This document shows positions 45,193-49,700 of a DNA stretch of 64,000 bases, one piece after another (position 1 is the first letter of the stretch; every line of letters starts with the position of its first letter). The translations under genes were made by a program, and so were the position numbers. The notes below the pieces were generated by a model. That model ran no database searches. It was not told where the DNA came from and saw only the letters and a program-made list of their open reading frames with translations. The stretch comes from Alteripontixanthobacter maritimus (GTDB lineage: Bacteria; Pseudomonadota; Alphaproteobacteria; Sphingomonadales; Sphingomonadaceae), in assembly GCF_003340475.1 (NCBI RefSeq), contig NZ_QBKA01000002.1:1745501-1809500 (forward strand), given 5' to 3'.

Positions 45193-45511
45193 GCCTCAAG
45201 CGCCGGCGGTCGCATTCGCGCTTTTTTTGTTTGGACCCTGCGGGCGCAGGCCATCCGGCCTGCTTGCTTCCTCGCATAAGCTCGGGCGGCCGTTCGGCCT
45301 TGCGGTCCGCTGGTCGCGGACCGAACTTGCGCTTCCCTCGTAACTTTGAAGCCGGTTCTTGGTCACGGCAGTCATAGGCCCAAAGGGCCGCCCGCAGCGA
45401 AGCGAGGAAAGCCTAAGGGGCCGGATGGCCCCGCCGGCGCTTGAGGCCAAACAAAAAAACTCCCGCCGACGCCTGAGGCCAAACAAAAACTCCGGCCGGC
45501 GCTTGAGGCTA
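45193..45511. repeat. Dispersed structured element, copy A (with tandem end repeats)
   Basis: Copy A of the three-copy element, oriented opposite to copies B (52.7 kb) and C (61.6 kb). It holds the shared 19-bp core CGAGCTTATGCGAGGAAGC (here reversed, 45266-45284), the block CGGCAGTCATAGGCCCAAAG, and GGTCCGCTGGTCGCGGACC, a strong hairpin. One terminus carries three head-to-tail copies of a 30-32-bp unit (GCCGGCGCTTGAGG-CCAAACAAAAA). It fills most of the 411-bp gap between hisZ and serA and ends exactly on the serA stop codon. Nothing else coding is seen here. Confidence 0.85.
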
Positions 45512-47113
45512 AAACGACAACGCCTTTACCATCCGCACGCCTTCCAGGCCGCAGGCCTTGTCCACTACTTCGGGTGTGATCGCATCGTCCACGCTGAGCA
45601 ACAGCACAGCCTCGCCGCCAGCCTCGCGCCGGCCCAGATTGAACGTGCCGATATTGATGCCGTTTTCACCCATCAGCGTACCGATCCGGCCGATGAAGCC
45701 CGGCGCATCGTCATTGACGATATACAGCATGTGACCGTCCAATTCAGCCTCGATCCCGACGCCGAAGATTTCGACCAGCCGGGGTGCGCCCGATCCGAAC
45801 AATGTGCCTGCCACGCTGCGATTGCCCTGTTCGGTTTCCACGGTGACACGCAGCAGCGTATGATAGGTACCCTCGCGGCTGTTACGGATTTCGCGCACTT
45901 CGATGCCGCGTTCCTTGGCGAGATAGGGCGCGTTGACCATGTTCACGGTTTCTGAATAGCGCCGCATCACGCCAGCCAGCACGGCGGCGGTAATTGGCTT
46001 GGCGTTCAGCTCTGCAGCGCCGCCTTCCATCTCGATGCTGATCTTGGGCAGGTTTCCATGCGCCAACTGGCCGACGAGCGAACCCAGGCTTTCCGCAAGC
46101 GCCATATACGGCTTTAGCTTCGGCGCCTCTTCCGCCGACAGGCTTGGCATATTGAGCGCGTTGGTCACACCGCCATTGACGAGATAGTCCGCCATCTGTT
46201 CGGCCACCTGCAGCGCCACATTCACCTGCGCCTCGTTGGTGGAAGCGCCAAGATGCGGTGTGCAGATAAAGTTCGGCGCGCCGAACAGCGGATTGTCCTT
46301 GGCCGGTTCCTGCGCGAACACGTCCAGCGCCGCGCCCGCCACATGGCCGCTTTCCAGCGCGTCCTTAAGTGCAGCTTCGTCAATCAGTCCGCCGCGCGCG
46401 CAGTTCACGATGCGGACGCCGGGTTTTGTCTTGGCGAGCGCTTCCCGGCTGAGAATATTGCGCGTTTCGTCGGTCAGTGGAGTGTGAAGTGTGATGAAGT
46501 CGGCACGCGCGAGCAGATCGTCCAGTGTGACTTTCTCGATGCCGACTTCCACGGCGCGGTCCTTGGTCAGGAAGGGATCGAAGGCGATCACCTTCATCTT
46601 TAGGCCGAGCGCACGGCTGGCGACGATCGAGCCGATATTGCCTGCGCCGATCAGGCCCAGTGTCTTGCCGGTTACTTCCACTCCCATGAAGGCGGATTTC
46701 GGCCATTCGCCAGCCTGCGTACGGGTGTTCGCCTGCGGAATTTGCCGGGCCAGCGCCATAATTAACGCGATAGCATGTTCCGCAGTGGTGATGGAGTTGC
46801 CGAACGGGGTGTTCATCACCACCACGCCCTTGCCGCTGGCATAGGGGATATCGACATTATCCACCCCGATGCCGGCGCGCCCGATAACCTTCAGATTAGT
46901 GGCGGCATCCAGTATTTCAGGCGTTACGGTGGTCGAGGAACGGATTGCGAGGCCGTGATAGTCGCCGATGCGGGCAACCAGTTCCTCGGGACTTTCGCCG
47001 GTAATCACATCGACGTCGCAACCGCGTTCTTCGAAAATGCGAGCGGCGTTGGGGTCCATCTTGTCGGAAATTAGGACGCGGGGTTTCTGCGTGGTTTTTT
47101 GGATATCGGTCAT
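45509..47113 (-). CDS. serA: D-3-phosphoglycerate dehydrogenase
   Basis: A 534-residue long-form SerA. The NAD-binding domain has TLGLIGAGNIGSIVASRALG, the catalytic Arg/Glu/His are in NCARGGLIDE and CTPHLGASTNEAQ. An intervening ASB-like domain and a C-terminal ACT domain (MLYIVNDDAPGFIGRIGTLM) follow. It oxidises 3-phosphoglycerate, the first step of serine synthesis; the ACT domain would sense serine. Directly downstream of serC on the same strand with 105 bp between, occupied by a palindromic repeat. Confidence 0.96.
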   Translation of the reverse strand: MTDIQKTTQKPRVLISDKMDPNAARIFEERGCDVDVITGESPEELVARIGDYHGLAIRSSTTVTPEILDAATNLKVIGRAGIGVDNVDIPYASGKGVVVMNTPFGNSITTAEHAIALIMALARQIPQANTRTQAGEWPKSAFMGVEVTGKTLGLIGAGNIGSIVASRALGLKMKVIAFDPFLTKDRAVEVGIEKVTLDDLLARADFITLHTPLTDETRNILSREALAKTKPGVRIVNCARGGLIDEAALKDALESGHVAGAALDVFAQEPAKDNPLFGAPNFICTPHLGASTNEAQVNVALQVAEQMADYLVNGGVTNALNMPSLSAEEAPKLKPYMALAESLGSLVGQLAHGNLPKISIEMEGGAAELNAKPITAAVLAGVMRRYSETVNMVNAPYLAKERGIEVREIRNSREGTYHTLLRVTVETEQGNRSVAGTLFGSGAPRLVEIFGVGIEAELDGHMLYIVNDDAPGFIGRIGTLMGENGINIGTFNLGRREAGGEAVLLLSVDDAITPEVVDKACGLEGVRMVKALSF

Positions 47114-47135
47114 GAGATTGCTCCGGATATCGTCG

Positions 47136-47206
47136 TTCCCGCGAAGGCGAGAACCCAGTGCGGCGAAAGTACCGCGTTTGGTTCTGGGTCCCCGCTTTCG
47201 CGGGGA
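47136..47206. repeat. Palindromic repeat between serC and serA
   Basis: TCCCGCGAAGGCGAGAACCC (from 47137) is an imperfect reverse complement of GGGTCCCCGCTTTCGCGGGG (ending about 47205), with a 25-nt spacer. The motif CCCGCGAAAGCGGG next to ACCCAG is a widespread sphingomonad-type intergenic palindrome. It would form a strong mRNA hairpin within the serC-serA transcript. Confidence 0.8.
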
Positions 47207-47218
47207 AGACGCAAAATA

Positions 47219-48373
47219 TTACTGGTTGCGAAGGCTTTCGTAAGCCCATTCGATCCACGGCAGCAGGCGTTTCAGATCCTCCTGCTCCACGGTTCCGCCG
47301 CACCAGATGCGCAAGGAGGGCGGCGCATCGCGGTAGCCATTGAAATCGTAGCCGACGTCGTGTTCGTCCAGCATCGCCGCGATCTTCTTGGGCACACCGA
47401 CCTGGTCTTCAGCGGACAGGCTTTCGTACCAGTCGCCCTGGAACACCATGCAAACGCCGGTATTGGTGCGCTGCGCCGGATCGGCGACCATATTGCGCAT
47501 CCAGGGCGTGGCTTCGATCCAGTCCGTCACGATCTTCGCATTGGCATCGGCGCGTTCAAACATCGCCTTGCGCCCACCGATCGACTTCGCCCATTCCAGC
47601 GCGAGGATGTAATCCTCCGTCGCCAGCAGGCTGGGCGTGTTGATGGTCGCACCTTCGAAGATCGCGCGGTTCAGCTTGTCGCCCTTTTTCAGGCGGAACA
47701 GCTTAGGGAGCGGCCATGCAGGATCGTAGCTCTCGATCCGCTTCACCGCCTTGGGGCTGAGCACAAGCATCCCATGCTGCGCTTCGGAGCCCATGACCTT
47801 CTGCCAGCTATAGGTTGTGGCATCGAGCTTCGCCCAGTCCATTTCCTGCGCGAAGACAGCGCTGGTCGCATCGTTGACGGCAAGGCCCTCGCGGCCCTGT
47901 TCCAGCCAATCGGTATTGGCGATTTTCGCACCCGAAGTCGTGCCGTTCCAGGTAAAGACAACATCGTTGCCCTGCGGGATCTGCGTAAGATCGGGAATTT
48001 CCCCGTAATCGGCGTCGAGCACTTGCAGATCGGGCAGTTTCAGCTGCTTGACCGCGTCCTGGATCCAGACATTGCCGAAGCTTTCCCATGCGGCGACTGT
48101 GGCCGGACGCGCACCCAGCATTGTCCACATCGCGCATTCCAGCGCGCCAGTATCCGAACCCGGCATAATGCCGACAAGATAATCGTCGGGCACGCCCAGC
48201 AATTCGCGCGACAGGTCGATGGCGTATTTCAGCCGCGCCTTGCCGACGGCGGAACGGTGCGACCGGCCCAGAGCTTCGGTTTTGAGATTGGATGCGGACC
48301 AGCCGGGAAATTTGGCAGTGGGTCCGGACGAAAAGAAAGGGCGCTCGGGTTTGAGCGTCGGCATATCGGTCAT
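47219..48373 (-). CDS. serC: Phosphoserine aminotransferase
   Basis: A 384-residue class V aminotransferase of the alphaproteobacterial SerC type. FFSSGPTAKFPGWSASNLKT, LGRSHRSAVGKARLKYAIDL, GIMPGSDTGALECAMW and the PLP-lysine region TTYSWQKVMGSEAQHGMLVL are present. It converts 3-phosphohydroxypyruvate, the SerA product, to phosphoserine. ATG 48373 follows a GGAGAG ribosome site that lies inside a hairpin. Transcription runs serC to serA, probably to hisZ. Confidence 0.94.
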   Translation of the reverse strand: MTDMPTLKPERPFFSSGPTAKFPGWSASNLKTEALGRSHRSAVGKARLKYAIDLSRELLGVPDDYLVGIMPGSDTGALECAMWTMLGARPATVAAWESFGNVWIQDAVKQLKLPDLQVLDADYGEIPDLTQIPQGNDVVFTWNGTTSGAKIANTDWLEQGREGLAVNDATSAVFAQEMDWAKLDATTYSWQKVMGSEAQHGMLVLSPKAVKRIESYDPAWPLPKLFRLKKGDKLNRAIFEGATINTPSLLATEDYILALEWAKSIGGRKAMFERADANAKIVTDWIEATPWMRNMVADPAQRTNTGVCMVFQGDWYESLSAEDQVGVPKKIAAMLDEHDVGYDFNGYRDAPPSLRIWCGGTVEQEDLKRLLPWIEWAYESLRNQ

Positions 48374-48378
48374 GTATT

Positions 48379-48494
48379 CTCTCCTCACAGAGAGCTCGCG
48401 CGGCGTTGGGACCGCGTGGCCCGTCGCCGCCACTAGACTTATGCCGGACCGAGTCAATCATTCCCTTCGCACCTGCGGTAGAAAATGCATTATA
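48379..48494 (-). promoter_or_regulatory. serC leader: promoter and folded 5' UTR (serC-RNA-motif-like)
   Basis: On the minus strand a perfect -10 box TATAAT lies at 48494-48489, giving a 5' UTR of roughly 105 nt. The leader holds a stable hairpin at 48430-48400 (GCGGCG/CGCCGC outer stem, GGGCC..GGTCC-type inner stem). A second hairpin lies at 48394-48379 (CTCTC/GAGAG, 6-nt loop) whose 3' arm contains the Shine-Dalgarno of serC. A conserved cis-acting RNA upstream of serC (the serC motif) has been described in alphaproteobacteria; identity with it needs a covariance search. Confidence 0.55.
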
Positions 48495-48551: not shown

Positions 48552-49700
48552 ATGGACATCACCGACCTGCGCATCGCCCTGTTCAGCGGCAATTACAACT
48601 ATACCCGCGACGGGGCGAATCAGGCGCTGAACCGGCTGGTCGGCTACCTGCTGCGGTCCGGCGCGCAGGTCCGCGTTTATGCCCCCACCGTGGCGGAACC
48701 GGACTTCGAACCGACGGGCGATCTAGTATCGGTACCATCCGTACGCTTTCCCATGAAGGGCCGCGGCGAATATCGCTTTCCATTGCCGCTATCGGCGGAA
48801 AACAAGACCGATATCGATATTTTTGCACCCAATGTGGTGCATATCGCCTCGCCCGATATGAGCGGCCATGCAGCGCTGCGCTATGCACAGGCTCGCAATA
48901 TTCCAGTACTGGCATCGGTGCACACGCGCTTCGAAACCTATCCCCGCTATTACCGGCTGGGCTTTATCGAACCTGCTATCGTGGCCATGCTGCGCCGGTT
49001 CTACAGCCGCTGCGACGCGCTGGTCGCACCTTCCCCCAGCATGATCGATACCTTGCGGCAGCAGGGCATGAACGACGATATCAGCCTATGGACACGCGGG
49101 GTGGATCGCGCGGTTTTCCATCCGGACAAACGCGACATGACCTGGCGGCGCGAACTGGGGCTGTCTGATGAGGATGTCGCCATCGTGTTTCTCGGCCGGC
49201 TGGTGGCGGAAAAGGCGCTGGACGTGTTCGCCGGTTCGATCGACAGACTGCGCAGCGCAGGCGTACCGCACAAGGTTCTGGTGATCGGCGATGGTCCGGA
49301 ACGCGCCAGCTTCGCCAAGGCGCTGCCGGGTGCAGTCTTCGCTGGGTTTCAGACAGGCGGCTATTTGGGGCGCGCGCTGGCCAGCGGCGATGTGTTCTTC
49401 AATCCGTCGATTACCGAAACCTTTGGCAACGTTACGCTGGAGGCGATGGCATGCGAACTGCCCTGCGTCGCTGCAGCCGCCACGGGTAGCGCCAGTCTGG
49501 TCGACGACGGCGTTTCGGGCCGACTGGTGCAGCCGGGCGACACCGCCGCCTTTGCCGATGCGCTAGCCCCCTATTGCACCGATCCGCAGCTACGCCGGTC
49601 GCATGGTCGGGCCGGAGAAAAGCGCGCGCAAGACTATGATTGGGACGCGATCAACCAGACTGTGGCGGATAGCTATCTACGATTGGCAGCAAACGCTTAG
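48552..49700 (+). CDS. Glycosyltransferase family 4 (mannosyltransferase-like)
   Basis: A 382-residue GT-B retaining glycosyltransferase. The N-domain has LRIALFSGNYNYTRDGANQA, VVHIASPDMSGHAALRYAQA and PVLASVHTRFETYPRYY. The C-domain has IVFLGRLVAEKALDVFAGSI, VLVIGDGPER and the nucleotide-sugar EX7E-like SITETFGNVTLEAMACELPC. Closest in feel to diacylglycerol/lipid alpha-mannosyl- or glucuronosyl-transferases, so a role in glycolipid synthesis is plausible but not shown. ATG 48552; the gene overlaps nothing but faces the serC promoter. Confidence 0.87.
   Translation: MDITDLRIALFSGNYNYTRDGANQALNRLVGYLLRSGAQVRVYAPTVAEPDFEPTGDLVSVPSVRFPMKGRGEYRFPLPLSAENKTDIDIFAPNVVHIASPDMSGHAALRYAQARNIPVLASVHTRFETYPRYYRLGFIEPAIVAMLRRFYSRCDALVAPSPSMIDTLRQQGMNDDISLWTRGVDRAVFHPDKRDMTWRRELGLSDEDVAIVFLGRLVAEKALDVFAGSIDRLRSAGVPHKVLVIGDGPERASFAKALPGAVFAGFQTGGYLGRALASGDVFFNPSITETFGNVTLEAMACELPCVAAAATGSASLVDDGVSGRLVQPGDTAAFADALAPYCTDPQLRRSHGRAGEKRAQDYDWDAINQTVADSYLRLAANA

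Follow-up and report, generated by a model that had tools for sequence, protein, structure and literature searches.

What does the short RNA leader in front of serC sense, and how does it act on the genes behind it? We addressed this question at one locus of Alteripontixanthobacter maritimus, inside a window of 64,000 nt (the whole stretch of DNA analysed, to which all coordinates refer). Here serC, encoding phosphoserine transaminase (47219-48373, minus strand; NF002841 609.8 bits and TIGR01365 546.2 bits, both above cut-off), is followed in the same operon by serA for phosphoglycerate dehydrogenase (45509-47113, minus strand; TIGR01327 675 bits, above cut-off), and the nearest named SerC relatives are found in Erythrobacteraceae (Altererythrobacter, Pontixanthobacter, Qipengyuania and Erythrobacter). 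The gap between the two genes (47114-47218) contains a palindromic repeat that is dispersed over the genome (13 matches), some places matching on both strands. We consider it likely that the leader is a cis-acting translational regulator of serC-serA, which would start on a GGG, sense its signal through a first hairpin (P1) folded into a pseudoknot, and hide the Shine-Dalgarno sequence in a second hairpin (P2).

Family membership and promoter of the leader

The original prediction proposed that this folded leader may represent the serC RNA motif in Sphingomonadales, either as an example or as a variant of it. A search with the Rfam model restricted to the locus settles the point: RF00517 matches over its full length (model positions 1-52) at 48374-48426 on the minus strand, with 40.7 bits against the curated cut-off of 35 and an E-value of 7.9e-8. 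Scanning the whole window with cmscan at the gathering threshold skips this copy, presumably because of the fast filters, and it is the single copy in the genome. This E-value, together with the covariation described below, excludes a chance origin; the fold energy of the stretch by itself is unremarkable (z = -1.8). A Type-P5 twister at the same locus was discarded at 14.9 bits, under its cut-off. The motif was first described in 2005 as two stems in front of a serC-serA operon, with a promoter directly upstream, the Shine-Dalgarno sequence inside the last hairpin and the start codon no more than 11 nt past it (Corbino et al., 2005; PMC1273637), and the window leader agrees in each of these features. 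Nothing essential sets the leaders of its Erythrobacteraceae relatives apart from RF00517, since they differ only in a U-G pair closing P1 and in a slippery CU/GA repeat in P2. The leader is thus an ordinary member of its class, not a variant.

Promoters directly precede all reported examples of the serC motif (Corbino et al., 2005; PMC1273637), and we aligned 229 distinct leaders without gaps, anchored on an invariant GGG (48420-48422 in the window, minus strand; 101 distinct cores). In this alignment both promoter boxes stand at a fixed distance from the GGG. The -35 element is TTGACT in the window (48452-48457, minus strand), with T at -35 in 97% of the leaders followed by TGAC, and TTG falls within -37 to -32 in 307 of 315. 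Sixteen nucleotides further lies the -10 element TAGTGG (48430-48435, minus strand), where T at -13 and A at -12 are kept in 77% and 76% of the leaders, respectively. A pyrimidine occupies position -1 in 314/314 leaders against a background of 54%. The fixed distance combined with the pyrimidine is the pattern expected if transcripts always begin at the first G, and we therefore predict that transcription begins at 48422, just upstream of the hairpins rather than downstream of them, giving a leader of 49 nt. Published coordinates of the S. meliloti serC transcript are mutually inconsistent and were left out.

A different promoter had been proposed, a perfect TATAAT at 48489-48494 on the minus strand, with two hairpins between it and the serC ATG at 48373. 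The two hairpins are indeed there, and the TATAAT had to be given up as the serC promoter: the hexamer occurs at chance frequency (6 in the window, 5.7 expected), it has no -35 partner, no counterpart was noticed in the relatives, and the conserved promoter is TTGACT/TAGTGG. A divergent gene for a GT4-type glycosyltransferase lies at 48552-49700 on the plus strand, about 180 nt from serC, and the hexamer, reading TATAAG on the strand of that gene, could belong to it instead. The first hairpin had also been drawn as a GC-rich bulged stem, which appears as well when a longer stretch is folded. That stem requires 48428-48434, bases upstream of the predicted start, so its 5' arm is probably not transcribed and the stem probably not formed; the hairpin predicted to be transcribed is the 6-bp P1. 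On the other side of the start codon, just within the serC reading frame, there is a stem that resembles a terminator but has its T run broken (48342-48357, minus strand); it is probably explained by the KPERPFFSSGP stretch of SerC encoded there.

P1, P2 and the invariant core

Leaders for comparison came from RF00517 matches, from serC protein matches irrespective of any RNA match, and from named plasmid-borne copies. Each of the 265 first-round leaders showed the pattern GGG-N3-stem-CCC. About 100 of them had been gathered through SerC similarity and nothing else, for the most part from close relatives, so the pattern is not solely a product of selection by the model. Both P1 and P2 show strong covariation over 314 leaders, which supplies the covariance support among relatives on which the original prediction depended. 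P1 (48399-48416, minus strand) is a 6-bp stem, CGCGGU/GCCGCG, with the loop CCCAAC. All six of its pairs show two-sided changes, 173 alignment cells are changed on both sides compared with 47 in shuffles, and 99.2-99.4% of the cells are paired as opposed to at most 64% when the alignment is slid.

The loop CCC (48408-48410, minus strand; +13 to +15) and the GGG (predicted +1 to +3) are both invariant and compatible with pairing in 101/101 distinct cores, a count to be read in the knowledge that both triplets were built into the search from the second round on; A at +16 and C at +18 are nearly invariant too. With a 3-bp helix, a 3-nt linker, the 6-bp P1, no gap and another 3-nt linker, the lengths are those permitted for an H-type pseudoknot. 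We infer from complementarity and geometry that the GGG and the CCC probably pair in this way; covariation cannot prove it because both strands are invariant. Among 56 serC upstream regions lacking the core, another complementary triplet in place of GGG/CCC was found in none (0.3 expected). A pairing of the loop CCC with the Shine-Dalgarno sequence was rejected as well, being only about 3 bp long and not conserved.

P2 (48379-48394, minus strand) reads CUCUCU-GUGA-GGAGAG and contains the Shine-Dalgarno sequence AGGAG (48381-48385, minus strand), whose first base lies 12 nt from the ATG; 5 nt separate the end of P2 at 48379 from the start codon. Several of its pairs show two-sided changes among 82 distinct P2 sequences, and the tip CUG-NRA-GG, in which the RAGG portion is the Shine-Dalgarno sequence, is invariant, in part by construction as the P2 alignment was anchored on it. 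The claim that pairing of CTCTC with GAGAG buries the serC Shine-Dalgarno sequence is borne out by nested-fold calculations, which ignore pseudoknots: over 153 distinct P2-bearing leaders the median unpaired probability of its GG is 0.06, against 0.56 with shuffled flanks. In Erythrobacteraceae-type leaders the P2 repeat is able to slip by one register, and in the energy model the unpaired probability of the GG falls from 0.46 to 0.07 once P1 is formed and GGG/CCC are withheld from other pairing. Two leaders of one Sphingomonadales genus (L081 and L084) have lost the RAGG of the tip and carry AGGAG at the base of P2, its AGG complementary to the opening CCU, and in a leader from another family (L374) the loop of P2 is enlarged with the Shine-Dalgarno sequence still paired. 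From these departures we argue that concealment of the ribosome-binding site would be what selection keeps in P2.

Proposed control of serC translation and its alternatives

In the mechanism that we propose, RNA synthesis would begin on the GGG at 48422, and the first 24 nucleotides would give the 6-bp P1 hairpin, with the CCC of its loop most likely paired to the GGG at the 5' end. The resulting small H-type pseudoknot would be the sensor, and the stability of P2, which conceals the Shine-Dalgarno sequence, would set the translation of serC. Our leading, still tentative candidate for the trigger is a serine or one-carbon pathway metabolite or ion that would be bound by the pseudoknot and thereby stabilise or release P2. 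If the pseudoknot is real, the leader resembles SAM-II of alphaproteobacteria and the preQ1 riboswitches in being a tiny H-type pseudoknot beside the Shine-Dalgarno sequence; sequence and lengths differ, and the likeness lies in the manner of working, with no homology claimed.

A less favoured but credible rival holds that an RNA-binding protein sensing serine status recognises GGG/P1/CCCAAC and moves P2. PyrR-like control of the serC leader was suggested when the motif was described, and L-serine, L-threonine and five B6 compounds, seven candidates in all, did not bind the serC RNA of A. tumefaciens (Corbino et al., 2005; PMC1273637). The small size of the element and the sequence-specific bases of its loop and linkers also speak for a protein, yet conserved unpaired bases would suit the pocket of a ligand just as well. 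PyrR-type leaders, which belong to pyrimidine genes, are likewise compact RNAs before a biosynthetic operon and act mainly by transcription attenuation; unlike for them, we know of no protein that binds the serC leader, or of a candidate for one. An absence of the GGG from the construct probed in 2005 (-46 to +11) was considered and dropped, since in S. meliloti the GGG lies exactly at -46. A 2020 review still lists the motif as an orphan (PMC7266159), and further open papers that we found give no ligand.

It is unlikely that the hairpins sense nothing and merely exert a constant brake on translation or serve as a thermometer. P2 is short, with -6.4 kcal/mol by itself, and the compared leaders conserve no competing, mutually exclusive pairing by which it could switch, as a constant brake would have it, but the conservation of GGG, CCC, A6, A16 and C18 goes far past the needs of pairing, and the core persists in leaders that have no P2. 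Somewhat more doubtful still is control coupled to the start site, where start choice, slippage or the chemistry of the 5' end would decide whether the pseudoknot and P2 form. Start-site choice does regulate pyrC of E. coli, and the GGG at the predicted 5' end, the fixed promoter distance and the pyrimidine at -1 in all 314 leaders fit such a scheme, but any short leader would show a fixed start too. An attenuator, T box or intrinsic-terminator leader is very improbable: such systems govern serine genes elsewhere among bacteria (PMC8002221, PMC9481103), but the predicted 49-nt leader has neither an upstream AUG nor a terminator, the sequence searched contains no short reading frame rich in serine, and Rfam searches of the whole window and of the locus returned no T-box match.

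Leaders without P2 and the distribution of the core

The proposed division of the leader into a pseudoknot sensor and P2 draws on a second form of the element. In genomes without a good RF00517 match the region upstream of serC often retains the core, with the Shine-Dalgarno sequence 8-10 nt past P1 and no P2. Such leaders occur in some orders and stay under the Rfam cut-off: RF00517 gives them 22-31 bits or, at E 1, does not detect them. They keep the GGG, P1 and the CCC, from which it follows that the core is a separable module, and we take the core for the sensor, with P2 as one of two possible output arrangements. The consensus fold of 23 such leaders consists of P1 only, lengthened by the pairing of +6 with +25. 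These two positions are an A and C mismatch in 98/98 distinct P2-bearing cores, and they can form a seventh P1 pair in 25 of the 28 cores that do not belong to the canonical P2 class, the three exceptions including the two leaders with a basal Shine-Dalgarno sequence in P2. By these counts, which ignore kinship, the base of P1 appears linked with the presence of P2.

A bolder and, in our estimate, rather improbable model would unite these features for the whole family, as a 5'-end-anchored pseudoknot sensor whose first strand is the initiating GGG, built either with P2 and the A6/C25 mismatch or with the seventh P1 pair and the Shine-Dalgarno sequence right after the pseudoknot, the latter architecture being missed by the current Rfam model. 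Were it true, start-site choice or the state of the 5' end could contribute to the signal. As the motif has been an orphan since 2005, a better-defined sensor gives cleaner constructs in the search for a ligand or protein: it would start at the GGG, probably fold as a pseudoknot, be separable from P2 and have one target gene, with the P2-less leaders indicating which part must be the sensor. The predicted start, the probable pseudoknot, the coupling of +6/+25 to P2 and the leaders lacking P2 usefully refine the picture of the motif, and some of these points may already have been described, given the additional conserved sequence and structure of the motif credited to Greenlee et al. (2018) as cited in PMC7266159.

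Of 387 alphaproteobacterial genomes searched with a model of the 27-nt core, 146 carry it, each in a single copy except for one (G386) with two on separate contigs. Every copy that could be checked is upstream of serC, two near contig ends being uncheckable, and no second, non-serC target was found among the 387 genomes, so the genome context adds no clue to the signal. Plasmid-borne leaders of Azospirillum were rejected as carriers, the core being absent from two (L367, L370) and the match in a third (L366) due to chance. The core is also untraceable in the 56 serC upstream regions mentioned above, for example L268, L273, L275, L272 and L288. Beside one P2-less serC leader, about 290 nt upstream and on the opposite strand, there is a match to the suhB/mmgR sRNA (RF00519, 48.4 bits; L330:1075-1161, minus strand).
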